Shown: positions 2,396 through 19,559 of the stretch, one piece after another
Numbering within the stretch: position 1 is the first letter of the stretch
How the letters are laid out: every line of letters begins with the position of its first letter
Origin: Candidatus Woesebacteria bacterium
GTDB lineage: Bacteria > Patescibacteriota > Microgenomatia > UBA1400 > PJMF01
NCBI GenBank assembly: GCA_017992725.1
Contig: JAGOOB010000003.1
Span: 1 to 34,194, forward strand
DNA: 34,194 nucleotides
Direction: 5' to 3'
Notes under the pieces: generated by a model
Told to the model about the DNA's origin: nothing
The model's input: the letters and a program-made list of their open reading frames with translations, nothing else
Databases searched by the model: none
Made by a program: the position numbers and the translations under genes

Positions 2396-3898
2396 ATGTC
2401 TAAAGATTCTCAGAAAAAATTGGCTCTGATCATACTTGATGGTTGGGGTTACTACAAGGATTACCCGGGCAATGCTATTAGTTTAGCCAATACCCCTACT
2501 TGGGACAAAATTTGGGCTGACAGTCCACGAGCACTATTGGCTTGTTCAGGTGAAGCAGTTGGTTTACCAGCTGGCCAGATGGGTAATAGTGAAATCAATC
2601 ACGCGGCCATTGGTTCGGGTCGTGTCATTTATCAAGACTTAGTTAAGCTCAATAAGGCCGTTGACGAAAAAACATTGCATCAAGCTGAAGCGATCAAAGA
2701 AGCTTTTACCAGGGCAAAAAATAATTCATCATCGCTGCATATTATGGGTTTGTTGAGTCCGGGCGGAGTGCATTCTCACGAAAAGCATATTTTCGGACTT
2801 ATTAAAGAAGCGGCGGATTTTGGGGTAAAGAAAATTTATGTTCACGCGATGACTGATGGTCGCGATACAGCTCCAAGAAGTTGTTTAGCCAGTTTTGAGA
2901 AGTTAGCAAAAATTTGCCAAGAAACAGGAGCCGAGTTGGCCAGCATTTCTGGTCGTTACTATGCTATGGATCGTGATCATAATTGGGAGCGCACTGATTT
3001 AGCTTATAGTGCTATCAAAGACCGCCAAGCACCCCAATTTGCCAGTGCCAAAGAAGCCATTGAAGATGCTTACAAAAATAACAAGGGAGATGAATTTATT
3101 GTCCCCTGCACCATTAAAGTCAGAGATGAAGAAGAGGCCAAGGTTAAAAGTGGTGATAGTGTTATTTTTGCTAATTTTCGTAATGACCGACCACGTCAAT
3201 TAACTGAGCGCTTTTTAGAAAAAGGTCCTGAAAACATTTTCTTTGTCACCATGACTCTTTATAGTGATCAGTACCCAGTAGCTGTCGCTTTTGGTCCAGA
3301 AAAGATTGAGCGCACTTTGGGAGAGATATTAGCGGAAAACCACATTAAACAGTTCAGGGTGACTGAAACGGAAAAATTTGCTCATCTTACTTTCTTTTTA
3401 AACTGCAAGCGTGAAGAACCGTATCCTTTGGAAGAGCGCTTTATGTTTGATAGCAATAAGGTTGAGAGTCATGCAGAAAAGCCAGAAATGAAAGCTTTAG
3501 CAATCGCTGATAAAATTGTCGAAACCATGAATCGAGGTGAACATTCTGTCATTTTTGCTAACATTTGTAATGGAGATATGGTGGGTCATACTGGAGATAT
3601 TCAAGCAGCAATTAAGGCCGCTGAAACAGTTGATTTAGCCCTAGCTAAAATTAAAGAAGCAGCTGAAACCAACAACTATTTCTTAATAATCACAGCGGAT
3701 CACGGCAATTGTGAAGAAATGCTCAACGAAAAAGGAGAAGTAGTTACTGAACATAGTATGAATCCTGTACCATTTGTGTTACTCAATGATGGTCAATTAA
3801 ATAGAAATGAAGGGATGATGAAAGATATAGCTCCGACAGTTCTTAAATTATTGGATCTACCTCAACCAAAAGAAATGACTGGACAGAGCTTGGTTTAA
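2396..3898 (+). CDS. gpmI: 2,3-bisphosphoglycerate-independent phosphoglycerate mutase
   Basis: Interconverts 3- and 2-phosphoglycerate using two Mn2+ ions and a phosphoserine intermediate. It has 500 residues, close to the family norm of about 510. Alkaline-phosphatase-fold motifs are in order: ILDGWGYY (metal Asp), GNSEINHAAIGSGR with the nucleophile Ser65, DGRDTAP, GRYYAMDRDHNWERT, NFRNDRPRQLTE, TEKFAHLTFF, NGDMVGHTG and TADHGNCEEM. The usual GNSEVGH reads GNSEINH here, a conservative family variation. Translation starts at an ATG behind a perfect Shine-Dalgarno (AAAGGAGGT), as expected for an internal operon gene. It sits directly behind eno, so two consecutive glycolytic steps are adjacent. 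Confidence 0.97.
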   Translation: MSKDSQKKLALIILDGWGYYKDYPGNAISLANTPTWDKIWADSPRALLACSGEAVGLPAGQMGNSEINHAAIGSGRVIYQDLVKLNKAVDEKTLHQAEAIKEAFTRAKNNSSSLHIMGLLSPGGVHSHEKHIFGLIKEAADFGVKKIYVHAMTDGRDTAPRSCLASFEKLAKICQETGAELASISGRYYAMDRDHNWERTDLAYSAIKDRQAPQFASAKEAIEDAYKNNKGDEFIVPCTIKVRDEEEAKVKSGDSVIFANFRNDRPRQLTERFLEKGPENIFFVTMTLYSDQYPVAVAFGPEKIERTLGEILAENHIKQFRVTETEKFAHLTFFLNCKREEPYPLEERFMFDSNKVESHAEKPEMKALAIADKIVETMNRGEHSVIFANICNGDMVGHTGDIQAAIKAAETVDLALAKIKEAAETNNYFLIITADHGNCEEMLNEKGEVVTEHSMNPVPFVLLNDGQLNRNEGMMKDIAPTVLKLLDLPQPKEMTGQSLV

Positions 3899-13026: not shown

Positions 13027-13647
13027 TTAGTAGCGAAACTTGCGAATTAAACCTACTACTCGACCCTGAATTTGCACGTTAGTGGCATAAATTGGGCTCA
13101 TGGTGGAGTTGGCTGGTTCTAATCTAATGCGAGTGACTTCTTTATAGAAACGTTTTAAAGTAGCTAGACCGTTATCTAGTAGAGCCACGACAATGTCACC
13201 ATTGTTTACCTCGGGAGTTTCCTCAATCACCACATAGTCGCCATCATCAATATGATCTTCGATCATTGATTTGCCTTTAACCTGCAACACAAAAGCTCTT
13301 TTTTTACCAGAAATCATTTCGGGAGAAACTTTGAAGGTCGCTTCAGGATCTTCGTGGGGTTCAATTGGAGCACCAGCGGCAATGTAACCTAAAAATGGCA
13401 GATCAACACTGTCAGTGATGTTTAAGAAGGTTCTATCAATCAACTCAATACCTCTAACGGCACCTTCATGTTTTCGAATAATTTTTTTACGCTGGAGCGC
13501 TTGTAGGTGTTCGTGAACGGTTGCCAAAGAAGAAACACCAATAGAATCAGCGATTTCTTTTAAGGTTGGTGCATAACCATTTTTTTGAATATATTGAGCA
13601 ATAAAGTCGACAATTTGTCTTTGTCTTTTGTATAAAGTAACTGCCAT
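13027..13647 (-). CDS. lexA: LexA repressor (SOS regulator)
   Basis: Self-cleaving transcriptional repressor, 206 residues. An N-terminal winged helix (YKRQRQIVDFIAQYIQKNGY, APTLKEIADSIGV) is followed by an S24-type protease domain. The autocleavage bond is Ala91-Gly92 in YIAAGAP, the nucleophile Ser127 is in GKSMIEDHI, and the general base Lys165 is in LATLKRF. All functional parts are intact, so a RecA-triggered SOS response is likely. ATG 13647 is chosen because it gives the standard LexA N-terminus; an upstream TTG at 13710 would add 21 residues unlike LexA. No Shine-Dalgarno is seen. The upstream intergenic region holds a pair of direct repeats that may be operator DNA. Confidence 0.95.
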   Translation of the reverse strand: MAVTLYKRQRQIVDFIAQYIQKNGYAPTLKEIADSIGVSSLATVHEHLQALQRKKIIRKHEGAVRGIELIDRTFLNITDSVDLPFLGYIAAGAPIEPHEDPEATFKVSPEMISGKKRAFVLQVKGKSMIEDHIDDGDYVVIEETPEVNNGDIVVALLDNGLATLKRFYKEVTRIRLEPANSTMSPIYATNVQIQGRVVGLIRKFRY

Positions 13648-13727
13648 AGACCCGATACTTTCACTAACTAATAACGAATAATAACCATAAAATAAACGAA
13701 TTTCTCCCAAAACACAACTAGTAAATT

Positions 13728-13817: not shown

Positions 13818-14492
13818 ATGTCAGGAATTACCGACTTTATTTTAAATTTTTTAACTAATTTTGCCAATTCTGTTTCACTTCCCCTCTTTGTGATTGTCGG
13901 TGCGTTAACCGAAGAGGTCCTGGCAGTGATTCCGTCCCCCTTTGTGCCCCTCACTGCCGGTTCTTTAGCCTACAATCAAGGAAAATCTGTTTATTTTATT
14001 CTTTTCTTGGTCTTAATTGGTGCGATTGCTAAGACTTTTTCTACCTCAGTAGTTTTCTGGTTTTCAGACAAATTAGAAGATTTAATTACTAAGGGTAAAC
14101 TCGGTAAAATTTTAGGTTTAGAAGCTAATGAAATTGAACGTTACGGTAAAATTTTTTCGAAAAACAAAAGTAATATATTCATTGTTTTTATTCTTCGGGC
14201 TCTGCCATTTATTCCAACGTTGCCAGTGACAGTGGTTTCTGGTTTGATTAAAGTTAAATATCGGATTTTTGCACTAGGTACTTTTTTGGGGGTGTTAGTG
14301 CGTAATAGTTTTTATCTTTTGGGGGCTTTTTATGGATTGCAAAAATTTCAGAGTTTAGTTGAAGGCGTAGATGCTTTAAGTTCAATTTTTGAAATATTAA
14401 TGATTATTGGTTTTTTGGGTTTTATCTTTTTTCTATTACGCAACAATTGGGAACGCATTTTTATGGCCTTAAAAAAAGGGAAAAAGAAATAA
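13818..14492 (+). CDS. DedA/VTT-domain membrane protein
   Basis: A 224-residue integral membrane protein with several hydrophobic helices and the re-entrant-loop pattern of the DedA (SNARE-associated/VTT) family: an acidic-proline segment EEVLAVIPSPFVPLTAGSLA, then the Arg-containing FILRALPFIPTLPVTVVSGL, with helix-breaking prolines as in family FxGRFxPxxR. DedA proteins affect membrane potential, and some are undecaprenyl-phosphate or phospholipid flippases/scramblases. Which applies here is not visible. The C-terminus is a basic tail (KKGKKK), likely cytosolic. Its stop codon directly abuts the stop codon of the converging enolase-like gene. Confidence 0.78.
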   Translation: MSGITDFILNFLTNFANSVSLPLFVIVGALTEEVLAVIPSPFVPLTAGSLAYNQGKSVYFILFLVLIGAIAKTFSTSVVFWFSDKLEDLITKGKLGKILGLEANEIERYGKIFSKNKSNIFIVFILRALPFIPTLPVTVVSGLIKVKYRIFALGTFLGVLVRNSFYLLGAFYGLQKFQSLVEGVDALSSIFEILMIIGFLGFIFFLLRNNWERIFMALKKGKKK

Positions 14493-15749
14493 TTATTTTT
14501 TACTGTTTAATTCTCGACTAATATCTAACAACCGGTTGTATTTAACGATTCTCTCTCCTCTATTGAGTGGCCCAAATTTGACATAATTAGCGCCAACTCC
14601 CACAGCCAAGTCAACAATTAGAGTTTCTAAAGTTTCACCAGTACTATGACTGATGATTAAATCAAGCTTATGATCTTTAACGGTTTTAATACTTTCCATG
14701 AGCTCACTGATGGTGCCAATTTGGATAGGTTTAAGTACAACCGCATTAGCCATTTCGTCATTTTTAATTTTGTTAATTTCTGAAACTTTGGCCGCAACAT
14801 GACGGCAAGCGGCGATAGTAGTGGTTTGACCAATGTCCCGATTGAGCATTTGCCAAGCTTTTTTATCATTTTCTACAAACGGATCTTCTAGATAAATAAT
14901 TTTATATTTTTCACGCACTTGTTCATAAAATTGAAGCAATTCTTCTTCAGTAAAACCCTGATTAGCATCACGAATTCGATATTTACTGGCTTCAAAAAAG
15001 TGATAAGCAGCTGCTTGTAAACCAAAGAAAACGTCTTGAGCAAAGTTATAGGTGGTGGTTCTAATAGCTTCTACTAATAATTCAAAAGCATCTAAATTTT
15101 TATATAAATTGGGTGTAAAACCACCAGTAAGACCGGTAGCATGAATGGCACCCTTATTAATTAATAAAGTTTCCAACTTTTGTTTAATAACAGCTATCAT
15201 TTCCAGCGATTTTTCTAAAGATAGATGGCTAGCAGGAATCAGGGAAAATTCTTGAAAGTCCAAGTTTTTTCCGCCATGACTACCACCATCAAAAGCGGTG
15301 ACAATACAAGTGGGTAAAACAAATTCTTGAATCAGATTATATTTTTTTTGAATATATTCATAGAGCGGTAAACCAACACTAATTGCACCAGCTTTTAAAA
15401 TGGCTTGAGACACTGCGAGAAGAGCGTTAGCGCCCAAGCGACTTTTATTAGCTGTTCCGTCAAGTTCTAATAAAATTTTGTCTAATTCTCCCTGAGCCGT
15501 GACTTCTTTTTCTATAATTTGGGGAGCAATAATTTGATTAATGTGATTCACTGCCTTAGCAACACCCAAACCTAAAAACCGCTCATCATTGTCTCTCAAA
15601 GCAATCGCATCAAATTGATTTTTATCAGTGTGCGTGGGGACGGTCGTAATCGTTGAAAAACCATTGTCGAGCCACAATAATAATTCAATAGTCGGTATGC
15701 CTCGACTATCAAACACCTCTTTAGCTTGAAGAGCATAAATTTTAGCCAT
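14493..15749 (-). CDS. Enolase paralogue with eroded active site (pseudo-enolase)
   Basis: A 418-residue protein clearly homologous over its whole length to enolase (FDSRGIPT, LDGTANKSRLGANALLAVS, GGSHGG, SHSTGET, RGERIVKYNRLL), but catalytic groups are missing. Compared with yeast enolase numbering, the substrate loop SGAST is PTHTDKN, Glu211 (GDEGG) is Thr208 in GLTGG, metal ligand Asp246 is Gln245, the Asp320 pair is Cys-Arg (315-316), and Arg374 is Ser369. Retained are His158, Glu167, Glu288, Lys340, His368 and Lys391. Loss of two of three Mg ligands makes enolase activity unlikely. It is the last gene of the run with PGM, Nudix and PGI/PMI, 57 nt behind PGI/PMI. The frame is open and full length, so it looks selected, perhaps as a structural, regulatory or moonlighting protein or with new chemistry. 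Confidence 0.85.
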   Translation of the reverse strand: MAKIYALQAKEVFDSRGIPTIELLLWLDNGFSTITTVPTHTDKNQFDAIALRDNDERFLGLGVAKAVNHINQIIAPQIIEKEVTAQGELDKILLELDGTANKSRLGANALLAVSQAILKAGAISVGLPLYEYIQKKYNLIQEFVLPTCIVTAFDGGSHGGKNLDFQEFSLIPASHLSLEKSLEMIAVIKQKLETLLINKGAIHATGLTGGFTPNLYKNLDAFELLVEAIRTTTYNFAQDVFFGLQAAAYHFFEASKYRIRDANQGFTEEELLQFYEQVREKYKIIYLEDPFVENDKKAWQMLNRDIGQTTTIAACRHVAAKVSEINKIKNDEMANAVVLKPIQIGTISELMESIKTVKDHKLDLIISHSTGETLETLIVDLAVGVGANYVKFGPLNRGERIVKYNRLLDISRELNSKK

Positions 15750-15806: not shown

Positions 15807-16898
15807 TTATTTTTTTAATTGCTCTTTGAACCAATCAACACTAGGAATTGGGCAAGGATTAATTTTTTCTAAAAAGGCCAAATAAAGATTGGCAAATGTA
15901 GTTAGTGTAATTAATTCAAAAACTTGAGTAATTTTATTATCGCTTTCTAAATTGACCATAATGCTATCAATATCCTTTTTTTCCAAAAGTTTTTGCGTTA
16001 ATTCAATTCGCTTTTGATTTCTTGGGTGATAAAGCTGTGACTGAAAGAATATAAAAAAGTGGTTTAACGAGTTGCTTTTAGGAAAACTTAACCCTTCCAA
16101 AAGATGATGGTTAATTTCTGGAATAATTTTATAATCGGCATAAATTTTGGCGTTTTCGTTAAATTGATTGCAGGCCGTATGCAGCGCTCCCTCTAAGAAT
16201 TCTGCCCCCACCAAAATGGGTCTTCTTTCTAAGCTTAAATAAGCTAGAAGTTTGGCTTGATTGTTTGCTTGATCAATTTCAATTTTTACCTTGTCAGTTA
16301 CTTGATTCACTACGTCGATAATTTCTAGCAATTGTTTTTCTTGAAAATCTAACAGTTTCGCTGCCGATAAAACACAAATAAAAGCCAAGATTGAATAGCC
16401 AATGGCCATTCGTGGTTGTTGTGAAGGATTGTGTTTGGCATTAATAAAAAAACTTGGGTAATTATTGTTTTTGGCAATGTCCGCTAATTTACCTCCTGAA
16501 CTAATCACTGCTATCTTAGCTTTTTTTTCTTCAGCCAGTTTAGCGCACGACAAGATTTCTTCAGTGTCACCCGAATAACTCGATAAAATGACTAAGGTGT
16601 TGTGATCGACAAAATTAGGTAATTGATAATCGCGATTAATATACATTGGTACAGTTAATTGATCTTTGAATAAATGCCACACGACGTCTGCGCCAAGAGC
16701 ACTGCCACCCATGCCAGCAACCACGATATTGGCAATGGATTTGATTTCATTTTCAGCAAACTTAATTTGCTGTCTTTCTTGCCAAACTTGATTGATTTGA
16801 TCAGCTAAACTTTCGGCACTAGCTAAAGCACCATTAGGATCCAGTTTGCTAATGGCGGTGCGATTATCCAAAATAGCAGCATCTTTAACGTCAGTCAT
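15807..16898 (-). CDS. Bifunctional phosphoglucose/phosphomannose isomerase
   Basis: Interconverts glucose-6-P or mannose-6-P with fructose-6-P. The 363-residue SIS-domain protein matches the archaeal-type PGI/PMI family: VVAGMGGSALGADV (first SIS loop), LSSYSGDTEEIL (phosphate-binding Ser/Thr), AVISSGGKLADIA, NPSQQPRMAIGYS, GAEFLEGALHTACNQFNENAK (catalytic Glu) and PEINHHLLEG (catalytic His). The start ATG overlaps the end of the Nudix gene by 8 nt, implying coupling. With the upstream phosphomannomutase/phosphoglucomutase it connects hexose-1-phosphates to fructose-6-P. Confidence 0.92.
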   Translation of the reverse strand: MTDVKDAAILDNRTAISKLDPNGALASAESLADQINQVWQERQQIKFAENEIKSIANIVVAGMGGSALGADVVWHLFKDQLTVPMYINRDYQLPNFVDHNTLVILSSYSGDTEEILSCAKLAEEKKAKIAVISSGGKLADIAKNNNYPSFFINAKHNPSQQPRMAIGYSILAFICVLSAAKLLDFQEKQLLEIIDVVNQVTDKVKIEIDQANNQAKLLAYLSLERRPILVGAEFLEGALHTACNQFNENAKIYADYKIIPEINHHLLEGLSFPKSNSLNHFFIFFQSQLYHPRNQKRIELTQKLLEKKDIDSIMVNLESDNKITQVFELITLTTFANLYLAFLEKINPCPIPSVDWFKEQLKK

Positions 16899-17412
16899 TT
16901 TTTCCTTTTTCTTTAATTAATAAGTCAAGAAAAACTTGAGTATTGGCAAAAGCTAAATTTTGGGGTAGCTGCTGGAGTGGAAAAAAACGCAACTCTGCAG
17001 CATCATCACTGGCTTTTAATTTTTCATCACCAATGGCTACTTCAAAAAACAGATTAATGGTTGGTGATTGTTCAACACCATAAACGTCTGGATAAGAACC
17101 CCAATATTTAACAATTTCACAACTACCCCGAGTTTCCTCATGGAATTCTCTTTTAATGGCTTCTTCAACGGTCTCACCAACATCAACAAAACCACCGACC
17201 GTATCCCAGCTACCGGAATTGGGGGCAATTTTGCGTTTATTCAATAACACCTCCCCCTTCTGATTAAAGGCAACTAGGGCCACTGCCAAAGAAGGATTGG
17301 GGTAAATTTTTAAAGCGCAATTGGCACAATGTAAATGAGTTGTCAACTTAGTGAGTTGCGATTTACAGCGAGGACAATAGTGATAGTTATCAATGAAGTA
17401 GTGATTAGTCAT
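16891..17412 (-). CDS. Nudix hydrolase with N-terminal zinc ribbon
   Basis: A 173-residue pyrophosphohydrolase of the NADH-pyrophosphatase-like layout: a zinc ribbon YCPRCKSQ...HCANCAL (CxxC about 16 residues from CxxC), then a Nudix domain. The Nudix box is GGFVDVGETVEEAIKREFHE followed by ETRG; the EE metal ligands are kept, while the box Gly is displaced one residue by Arg. The substrate is not predictable. Start ATG 17412 (MTNHYFIDN) fits the 5-nt gap after the upstream gene; a longer start at 17454 would overlap that gene. It sits between two sugar-phosphate enzymes, so a nucleotide-sugar substrate is conceivable. Confidence 0.88.
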   Translation of the reverse strand: MTNHYFIDNYHYCPRCKSQLTKLTTHLHCANCALKIYPNPSLAVALVAFNQKGEVLLNKRKIAPNSGSWDTVGGFVDVGETVEEAIKREFHEETRGSCEIVKYWGSYPDVYGVEQSPTINLFFEVAIGDEKLKASDDAAELRFFPLQQLPQNLAFANTQVFLDLLIKEKGKND

Positions 17413-17417
17413 AATTA

Positions 17418-18839
17418 CTAATCTAAAGCGTGAACGTTTGTTCCCTCCTGCCAATTGACTGCTGGATATTGCTTTAAGATATTTCTTATTTCTTTTTTAA
17501 GGGTTTGGTATTGTTCCTTGGTTTTCCCCTCGAATTTAACAGTGACATATGGTCCATTTTGAGACGCACGAATGATAGCCATTTGTTCCGGTAGGTCCAT
17601 ACGAATCCCGTCGATTTTAGTAAATTTAGCTTGTGGCCAATGTTTTTTAAAATCAGCGGTAATCTCTTGATCAATTAATTGAAATTTAATTTCATCAGCT
17701 AAACCTAACTTAATTTCTGGACTACTAATATATTGGACCAACTCACTGACTGCTTCACTTAACTTGATTTTTCTTCTTTCTAAATAACTCAGTAATCGTA
17801 AACAAGCATAAGCAGCGTCATCGTGGCCATAAAAATTATCCATAAAAAAGATGTGACCAGATAATTCTCCACCGAAAGGTGAACGCTCCTCTTTCACTTT
17901 AGCTTTGATAAAAGAATGGCCAGTAAGCCACATCACTCCTTTGCCCTGAGCTTGCTCAATGGTTTCTTGAACTTGACGAGAACAGAGAGTGTTATAAATA
18001 ATTTTACTACCTGGTAGAAAATCTAAAACGTCTTTAGCAAACAACGAGACAATGGTATCCATCCACAAAATTTGGCCATGCTCGTCCACCACTGACATGC
18101 GATCACCGTCCGCATCAAAAGCAAAACCCAGATCGGCTTTAGCCTGAATGACACCTTGAGCTAGCCGTTCAAGCACGCTTTGCTCGGTTGGATCTGGGTG
18201 CCCTAGGGGAAAATTTGCATCTAGCTGACAATTTTGTTCAATCACCTCGCAACCGGCTTGGCGAAAGATGGCCGGATAAAAAATACCACCAGTGGCGTTG
18301 CAAGCATCCACTACGATTTTCCACTTTTTTTGGAGTGAAAAGAGTTTTAATAACTGTTGAGTATAGCTTTTGATAATATCTTGTTCTCTATTTTTTCCCT
18401 TACCTTCAACGAATTTTTTACTTTGAGCAATTTTTTGCAACTCTTCAACTTCTTCACTTACCATGGTATCTGAATAACCAACGCTCATTTTTAAGCCATT
18501 AAATTCTTTAGGATTGTGGGAGGCGGTGATCATTGCTCCCCCCTTGGTTTTAAATTCGTACGAAGAGTAATAGACAATTTGACTCATGCTCAAACCAATA
18601 TCAATGGTATCAATACCAGAATCATTTAAGCCTTTGATAAAGGCTTGACTGTATAGATCACTATTGAGACGATTATCTCTACCCACTGCGCTTTCTTTGA
18701 TTCTTCTTTTACTGAGAAAAGTGCCATAGGCTCTACCCAGCGTATAATAGACATCCTCATTAAGATCTTCATTGATTAAACCTCGAATGTCATAGCCACG
18801 AAAAATGTTGGGGTTGATCTGATCGACAATGTGATACAT
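17418..18839 (-). CDS. Phosphomannomutase/phosphoglucomutase
   Basis: Alpha-D-phosphohexomutase, 473 residues, moving phosphate between C1 and C6 of glucose or mannose. Domain motifs in order: IFRGYDIRG (N-terminal), ITASHNPKEFNG with the phosphoserine, FAFDADGDRMSVVDE (Mg loop DxDGDR), GGELSGHIFF (sugar-binding loop) and a C-terminal phosphate-binding region around RASQNGPYVTVKFEGK. The start ATG has a Shine-Dalgarno-like GAAAGGT 6 nt upstream. It belongs to a co-directional run with the HolA-like gene upstream (30-nt gap) and Nudix downstream (5-nt gap). It supplies precursors for surface polysaccharide or feeds stored glucan into glycolysis. Confidence 0.94.
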   Translation of the reverse strand: MYHIVDQINPNIFRGYDIRGLINEDLNEDVYYTLGRAYGTFLSKRRIKESAVGRDNRLNSDLYSQAFIKGLNDSGIDTIDIGLSMSQIVYYSSYEFKTKGGAMITASHNPKEFNGLKMSVGYSDTMVSEEVEELQKIAQSKKFVEGKGKNREQDIIKSYTQQLLKLFSLQKKWKIVVDACNATGGIFYPAIFRQAGCEVIEQNCQLDANFPLGHPDPTEQSVLERLAQGVIQAKADLGFAFDADGDRMSVVDEHGQILWMDTIVSLFAKDVLDFLPGSKIIYNTLCSRQVQETIEQAQGKGVMWLTGHSFIKAKVKEERSPFGGELSGHIFFMDNFYGHDDAAYACLRLLSYLERRKIKLSEAVSELVQYISSPEIKLGLADEIKFQLIDQEITADFKKHWPQAKFTKIDGIRMDLPEQMAIIRASQNGPYVTVKFEGKTKEQYQTLKKEIRNILKQYPAVNWQEGTNVHALD

Positions 18840-18869: not shown

Positions 18870-19559
18870 CTACAGAGTTATTAAAAGAAGGTCAAGTTCA
18901 CTCGCCAAATCTAGTAAATTGGCTGAATGTTTAATTTTATTATCCAATAGATAGAGTTTTTGGTGAAGATTCAATAATTGTTTTAAGGTAAAATTTTTCT
19001 TTTGTCTGTTTAGTTTATTTTTCACAAAAGGATGCATGGCTAAATCAGCACCCGCGGTAATGGCGATTAAATCGCTTACCCGTTTACTAATCATCACTAG
19101 ACAAAATTCAGCCGAATCTTGATTAATTGCTTCTTGTAAAAGCGCTAATTGTCTTTTTTTAGTTTTAGCTTGTGGACTGAATTGATCTAACAATTGCCAA
19201 AGAGCTTTACTCATCGGAAAGTAATAGATTTGAGCATTAGTCAATTTTTTTAGATTATTTTTAGTTAAAGATTTTTTTTCCCACAAAACGATATCTAAAA
19301 ACTGACTGGCTTGAATAATTTGTTCAAGGTAATCAGTTCTTTTTTTGCTTTGCGGCAGTGAGTGTAACTCTTCAATAATCAAACAGGGTTCTTGACCAAA
19401 AAGATCTTTGGCAAATAAAGCCTGTTCCAAGATTTGAGGAGTAATTTTTTTGGCTGAAAGGGTGTTTAGGTTTTGGTTCTTAGCTTGAGCTGCTTGTTTA
19501 AGCTGAAAAAGTTTTTCCCTGGATTTAACTAAATTGTCGCCGTGAATAATTGTTAGCAT
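18870..19559 (-). CDS. holA: DNA polymerase III delta-subunit-like (HolA-type) protein
   Basis: A 229-residue protein starting LTIIHGDNLVKSREKLFQL, which resembles the family's opening GDDxxxSxxxL, then QALFAKDLFGQEPCLIIEEL and LEQIIQASQFLDIVLWEKKSL, matching the delta-subunit layout in which the clamp-wrench domain carries no Walker motifs. It is shorter than the usual 330-340 residues; the C-terminal part (NLHQKLYLLDNKIKHS...ELDLLLITL) resembles the family's final helical domain. The role would be loading the sliding clamp. Divergence is high, so the call rests on overall pattern. It starts 4 nt after the end of the upstream metalloprotease gene. Confidence 0.6.
   Translation of the reverse strand: MLTIIHGDNLVKSREKLFQLKQAAQAKNQNLNTLSAKKITPQILEQALFAKDLFGQEPCLIIEELHSLPQSKKRTDYLEQIIQASQFLDIVLWEKKSLTKNNLKKLTNAQIYYFPMSKALWQLLDQFSPQAKTKKRQLALLQEAINQDSAEFCLVMISKRVSDLIAITAGADLAMHPFVKNKLNRQKKNFTLKQLLNLHQKLYLLDNKIKHSANLLDLASELDLLLITL

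Follow-up and report, generated by a model that had tools for sequence, protein, structure and literature searches.

One of the two enolase genes in the window, i.e. the whole stretch of 34,194 nucleotides that was analysed, encodes a protein (P0002) with a predicted enolase fold and a degenerate active site. The overall explanation favoured here, with a probability of roughly two in three, is that the native enolase turned into a pseudoenzyme and has been retained for a structural or scaffold role, the chemistry being left to another, canonical enolase (P0001).

The ex-enolase gene and its locus

The genes that bear on this explanation are the following:

14493..15749, minus strand: ex-enolase P0002, native Microgenomates enolase lineage, 418 residues, catalytically degenerate
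15807..16898, minus strand: PGI/PMI (bact-PGI_C), conserved upstream neighbour of the native enolase locus
16891..17454, minus strand: NUDIX hydrolase, same operon as the ex-enolase
17418..18839, minus strand: phosphoglucomutase/phosphomannomutase (PGM), conserved in the native locus
18870..19559, minus strand: holA-like gene (DNA polymerase III delta), marker of the ancestral locus across the class
13027..13710, minus strand: lexA-like gene, downstream, marker of the ancestral locus, its identity read from the sequence and not from a family search
13818..14492, plus strand: VTT-domain membrane protein, convergent, abutting the ex-enolase stop codon
1037..2335, plus strand: canonical enolase P0001, 13 of 13 catalytic residues, catalytic replacement
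2396..3898, plus strand: gpmI (independent phosphoglycerate mutase), adjoining the canonical enolase rather than the ex-enolase

The plus strand across 14493-15749 contains many stop codons and the intact frame is found on the minus strand only. The initial annotation had described an intact 418-residue frame that shares the window with a canonical enolase and follows PGM, Nudix and PGI/PMI genes, and these points are borne out, the strand being minus. Its description of the setting as a sugar-phosphate operon stands for these three genes, but the setting is wider, with ppsA (PEP synthase) and gpmI as ancestral neighbours and ppsA decayed in the family of the window (f1). The class-wide order of the native enolase locus is holA-PGM-PGI-[ppsA]-eno-[gpmI]. 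The P0002 gene occupies the ancestral slot between PGI and lexA, from which ppsA and gpmI are gone, and the pair formed by the canonical enolase and gpmI is placed 12 kb away. The PGM of the operon slot shares 30-38% identity between the loci L076/L077, L081/L084 and L099/L104, the other operon genes being closer, a pattern that suggests an in-place replacement of PGM too.

P0002 and P0001 share 37% identity. The Pfam matches of P0002 are full length, with the Enolase_N (PF03952, 2e-39) and Enolase_C (PF00113, 2e-53) architecture present over the whole protein, and the NCBIfam model TIGR01060 scores 357 bits, above its cut-off of 300, so that automatic annotation would call P0002 an (active) enolase. 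Judged on sequence, the homology to enolase is far above chance. The AlphaFold model has the enolase fold (pLDDT 93.4, pTM 0.92) and is matched to E. coli enolase by Foldseek with a TM score of 0.96. P0002 itself carries no C-terminal tail, and the codon usage of its gene resembles that of the other genes in the window. Full-length orthologues occur in nearly all genomes of the same family, and the named relatives are Microgenomates/'Pacebacteria' MAGs and a closed chromosome, CP011212.1, whose TM6 label is apparently an error. The search of viral contigs returned no relative. Membership in NF006223 (PRK08350) was considered and rejected, the match being very weak (70 bits, with a cut-off of 624).

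The window is one of 67 contigs in a draft genome, and an assembly or binning artefact could in principle have united the enolases of two organisms. The presence of both enolase genes on one contig in the window genome, G001 and G002, as well as on the closed chromosome CP011212.1, makes such an origin exceedingly improbable.

Active-site residues and selection

The catalytic content of each enolase was scored at 13 positions in yeast numbering. In S. aureus enolase, PEP is bound by Lys343/Lys394, Asp318, Arg372, Ser373 and Ser42, the Mg is held by Asp244, Glu291 and Asp318, and Glu166/Glu207 contact the 2-PG hydroxyl (PMC4667285). The S. aureus residue numbers were matched to the yeast ones by motif, the matching being our own. 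P0002 keeps six of the 13 positions and P0001 keeps all of them. The relevant sites of P0002, all on the minus strand, are:

15621..15635, codons 39-43: THTDK replacing the SGAST phosphate loop, Ser39 to Asp
15120..15134, codons 206-210: GLTGG replacing GDEGG, Glu211 to Thr208
15015..15017, codon 245: Gln replacing the Mg ligand Asp246
14886..14888, codon 288: Glu295 kept (Glu288), sole remaining Mg ligand
14802..14807, codons 315-316: Cys-Arg (Cys315/Arg316) replacing Asp320-Asp321
14730..14732, codon 340: Lys345 kept (Lys340)
14640..14645, codons 369-370: Ser-Thr (Ser369, Thr370) replacing Arg374-Ser375, phosphate binding
14577..14579, codon 391: Lys396 kept (Lys391)

His159, Glu168 and His373 (His368) are also kept. 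The Mg-ligand trio Asp246/Glu295/Asp320 thus reads Gln/Glu/Cys, with two of three lost, and the phosphate contacts Ser39/Arg374/Ser375 read Asp/Ser/Thr, with none left. In the pair that contacts the 2-PG hydroxyl, Glu168 is kept and Glu211 is replaced by Thr, whereas Lys345 (the base) and Lys396 are both present. All the losses listed in the initial annotation (SGAST, Glu211, Asp246, the Asp320 pair and Arg374) and its six retentions prove correct by alignment. Since Ser39 and Ser375 are gone as well, all three phosphate contacts are lost, beyond the metal ligands. By its residue content, P0002 is catalytically incompetent. The replacements Glu211 to Thr, Asp320 to Cys and Arg374 to Ser are invariant over the ten sequences of the window clade. 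Most relatives in the window's family have lost Glu211 and Asp321, with the three Mg ligands and the two lysines still in place.

These residues could also be read as an enzyme with a new specificity, in which Lys345, Lys396 and an altered pocket would act on another substrate. The six residues that the window clade retains and the invariance of the three replacements, which leave the pocket partly conserved, are in favour of such an enzyme, and the Mg ligands and lysines of most family relatives leave room for a changed activity there. On the other hand, P0002 is left with one of the three Mg ligands and no phosphate contact, and enolase-superfamily chemistry is, to our knowledge, Mg-dependent. 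The letters at the former active site also vary by clade, and in the independent family f20 the loop and the lysines are lost, which leaves no common new site. A new specificity is therefore rather doubtful, and a structural or scaffold role of P0002, rather than new catalysis, is considered probable.

The ex-enolases of f20 are the most extreme cases: they have lost Glu295 and, by deletion, the GDEGG loop, often carry another residue at Lys345, Lys396 or both positions, and stand beside an intact canonical enolase. The proposal of a class-wide new active site was rejected, as the replaced positions vary from clade to clade and the GDEGG loop is missing altogether in f20. The same family contradicts the proposal that the lysine pair is always kept in ex-enolases; the earlier argument that retained lysines indicate that something still binds holds for P0002 as far as the retention goes, but fails as a general rule.

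Within the genus of the window, dN/dS (Nei-Gojobori) is 0.037-0.055 for the P0002 gene and 0.050-0.061 for the canonical enolase, and pairs from related genera give 0.03-0.07 for the ex-enolase, all approximate values because dS is close to saturation. The two other members of the genus carry intact orthologue frames with 87-89% identity to P0002, and the frame is likewise intact in orthologues over about 20 genera. In one comparison of two f20 genomes, the ex-enolases share 83% identity, against 77% for the active enolases. The loss of catalytic residues while a redundant enzyme is present would also be expected of a pseudogene in early decay. The intact frames, the low dN/dS and the ordinary codon usage make such decay highly improbable. 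Neither of the signs of a pseudogene named in the initial annotation, broken frames in close relatives or relaxed selection, was seen in the relatives examined. As had been proposed from the sequence of the window, this full-length protein is very probably a pseudoenzyme kept under strong purifying selection and not a pseudogene.

Native lineage and recurrent loss of catalysis

In a tree of 70 enolases, all P0002-like proteins of the same family form one clade (support 100/99) beside single-copy enolases from further families in the order, and the canonical lineage is separate from them. The split between the P0002 and canonical lineages is deeper than the family, and 10 weak positions are common to all native enolases and absent from canonical ones. 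Judged by tree and synteny, P0002 is the native, ancestral enolase of the class Microgenomates (Patescibacteria) and not a recent duplicate. The initial annotation had called it a second gene and a paralogue, wording that suggests a duplicate of the true enolase; this is not supported, the catalytic copy being the one from another lineage. A survey of about 1000 CPR genomes described enolase as patchy and partly laterally transferred, and made no mention of inactive copies (PMC7304191).

The active enolases of genus g4 belong to two lineages, one with SGAST..KTG and one with YGASA/GNEGA..KVG, that share 46-47% identity, whereas for the same comparisons the ex-enolases reach 86-89% identity at closest. 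Among 19 genomes of the window's family, the distances between ex-enolases track those between LexA proteins (Mantel rho 0.38, p 0.005), and the active-enolase distances show no correlation with LexA (Mantel rho 0.01, p 0.43). By the partner swap and the Mantel contrast, it is the catalytic enolase that can be exchanged, the inactive one being mostly inherited vertically. The lineage with YGASA/GNEGA/SHRGGE/KVG, in which Ser375 is replaced by Gly, is a third enolase lineage (L182, L184, L185, L186, L194, L195, L198-L201) and, in many genomes of the class, seems to act as the active enolase.

Enolases form dimers or octamers, and active-site-dead paralogues often regulate their active sisters. 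P0002 might accordingly be a regulatory subunit of its own active enolase, in a pseudo/active heterodimer or hetero-octamer, and the two genes are placed about 10-13 kb apart in several genera. Against such a subunit, the active enolase of g4 was swapped while the ex-enolase was conserved, the ex-enolase distances are vertical and the active-enolase distances are not, and the split of the two lineages predates the family. Co-inheritance of the ex-enolase with one active-enolase lineage was not found, in g4 or in the Mantel comparison. The dedicated partnership with the true enolase, which the initial annotation had listed among several possibilities, is disfavoured by the g4 swap, and a regulatory subunit is quite unlikely.

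Residues were scored in 133 proteins of the native lineage, for 121 of which the partner status is known. Native enolases from single-enolase genomes keep 12-13 of the 13 catalytic residues in 38 of 39 cases. A second enolase is present in the same genome for 55 of the 56 degenerate native enolases (11 or fewer of 13). The association is phylogenetically clumped and its Fisher p of 1e-12 does not correct for phylogeny; in an independent-pairs test, the informative pairs were too few for significance to be reached. At least five changes of state are forced by supported branches, and seven occur on the best tree. A further 27 native enolases whose genomes hold a second enolase have remained intact or almost intact, which indicates that the second enolase permits catalytic loss and does not force it.

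The locus L145 (G094/G248, 98% complete) was examined as a genome with a degenerate enolase only, and was rejected because its gpmI (456 residues) runs off the contig edge, ending 17 bases short of the locus end. The canonical enolase precedes gpmI in relatives and is therefore probably in the gap.

Three further observations concern the diversity of these genes. In f20, the ex-enolase genes of L260-L266, L269 and L270 immediately follow an intact ppsA, and most of them precede a ruvA-like gene. In family f26 (L127, L133; also L234, L235, L256), a second, short enolase-like frame of 343-346 residues with AGISA/GAEGA adjoins the native enolase and is convergent with it. In G099, G123, G153 and other f17/f18 genomes, the sole enolase-like match is very divergent and low-scoring (E about 1e-38 to 1e-90).

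PEP synthase, the proposed retained role and known systems

The ppsA genes that adjoin the ex-enolase in the window's family lack the GGxTSHAAI phosphohistidine loop in 14 of 14 cases (one cut by a contig edge), together with nearly all other PpsA motifs searched. The scanned proteins keep the PPDK_N match, and five of six keep PEP-utilizers_C; the mobile domain is deleted or has lost its histidine. These pseudo-PEP-synthase loci include L084:6097-7998, L085:6015-7961, L087:6061-7995, L090:5818-7986 and L093:5664-7961. A model of one of them is good per residue (pLDDT 85.6), with uncertain domain packing (pTM 0.46). In one unsaturated pair, dN/dS is 0.12 for the pseudo-PpsA versus 0.065 for the ex-enolase; by this comparison, the pseudo-PpsA evolves faster than the ex-enolase, yet is constrained. 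The gpmI of the ex-enolase operon in this family retains most motifs. In G041:C1, near 190753-191997, a partial ppsA match lies inside an open frame of 24,859 residues, which may reflect masked sequence or else be a frame of very great length.

The ppsA search returned no match in the window genome, its genus and several other genera, and the degenerate enolases of G161 and G308 (L293, L295) have no ppsA beside them either. Family f20 keeps an intact PpsA ahead of its dead enolase. Pyruvate kinase is matched in all 18 genomes of the window's family that were searched (full length in 17) and was not found in three single-copy relatives (G038, G039, G050).

Several ex-enolases of sister genera carry disordered C-terminal tails of 56-242 residues, rich in Pro/Thr/Ser/Glu/Gln/Ala/Asn. 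Among the native enolases examined, tails of at least 30 residues are nearly confined to the window's family. Long disordered tails would be expected of scaffolds or tethers. The tails of L104, L028, L029 and L038 (about 190-240 residues) share a conserved short motif, ID.TL.EIG, near the end; the motif is restricted to ex-enolases from a single sub-clade and is missing from all other neighbourhood proteins examined.

The proposed course of events starts with a native Microgenomates enolase that would have had a second, non-catalytic role in a protein assembly, plausibly with PEP synthase, its usual neighbour, as the two genes are adjacent across most of the class. Once the chemistry had passed to another enolase, and in the window's family also to pyruvate kinase, the active site would be freed from selection; the release of the active sites would be explained by a metabolic change in which pyruvate kinase replaced PpsA and another enolase came in. 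Selection on the folded body for the second role would persist and leave a pseudoenzyme scaffold. In the window's family, PEP synthase would likewise have become a pseudoenzyme, afterwards lost in the window clade, and sister genera would have added the long tails to the ex-enolase. As retention after the loss of chemistry is repeated, its simplest common cause would be a non-catalytic role that the native enolase already had. It is tentatively proposed that this selected role, probably exercised in a complex with PEP synthase, is separable from catalysis, that the ex-enolase was kept after the takeover, and that PEP synthase followed in one family, leaving a 'ghost' glycolytic pair of two inactive neighbours. 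The assembly is deduced from gene adjacency and co-decay, both of which a shared pathway explains too.

A more specific possibility is that the ex-enolase was, and elsewhere still is, a dedicated subunit or regulator of PEP synthase, the window clade holding a left-over with a derived use. The class-wide adjacency of ppsA and eno, kept in f20 with a dead enolase and an intact PpsA, and the adjacency of the pair in the window's family though both are dead, are consistent with this subunit. The adjacency also mirrors the shared pathway, and the missing ppsA in the window genome and genus, and beside the enolases of G161 and G308, speaks against the subunit. The window clade being devoid of ppsA, the link to PpsA cannot be the whole role. 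A dedicated PEP synthase subunit is possible and remains less probable than the broader scaffold role.

For a glycolytic enzyme, a moonlighting role is difficult to establish, since it is hidden behind the catalytic one. In these bacteria, evolution seems to have separated the two roles repeatedly, the chemistry passing to a different gene and the original protein body staying under selection. The ex-enolases are retained in small genomes (about 0.5-1.8 Mb) from which useless genes would be expected to disappear, and they constitute a natural separation-of-function set for finding the non-catalytic role of enolase. They also score above the cut-off of the curated enolase model and will enter annotations and models as active enolases, so that errors can arise in enolase copy counts and in the metabolic reconstruction of these uncultured bacteria.

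Relative to enolase (phosphopyruvate hydratase, TIGR01060), P0002 is alike in full-length homology and fold and sits in the ancestral slot of a working enolase in related families, but it differs at seven of 13 catalytic positions (two Mg ligands, Glu211 and all phosphate contacts among them). The uncharacterised enolase-like family NF006223 shares with P0002 an unassigned function. Moonlighting enolases, such as that of E. coli with RNase E (PDB 5ohg/2fym) and the dimeric S. aureus enzyme (PMC4667285), have a known or proposed non-catalytic role, as is proposed for the ex-enolase; they are single genes with intact active sites, whereas here the presumed second role resides in a separate, inactive protein. 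The literature that was searched contained no description of a Microgenomates pseudo-enolase or of an inactive enolase lineage in Patescibacteria. Pseudoenzyme paralogues in general have lost catalytic residues and kept fold and selection, as the ex-enolase has. Pseudoenzymes and moonlighting enolases are thus known kinds, and what is new here is that the native copy is the dead one and the active enzyme exchangeable, that the loss recurs within one class, and that the operon neighbour PpsA decayed alongside in the family of the window.
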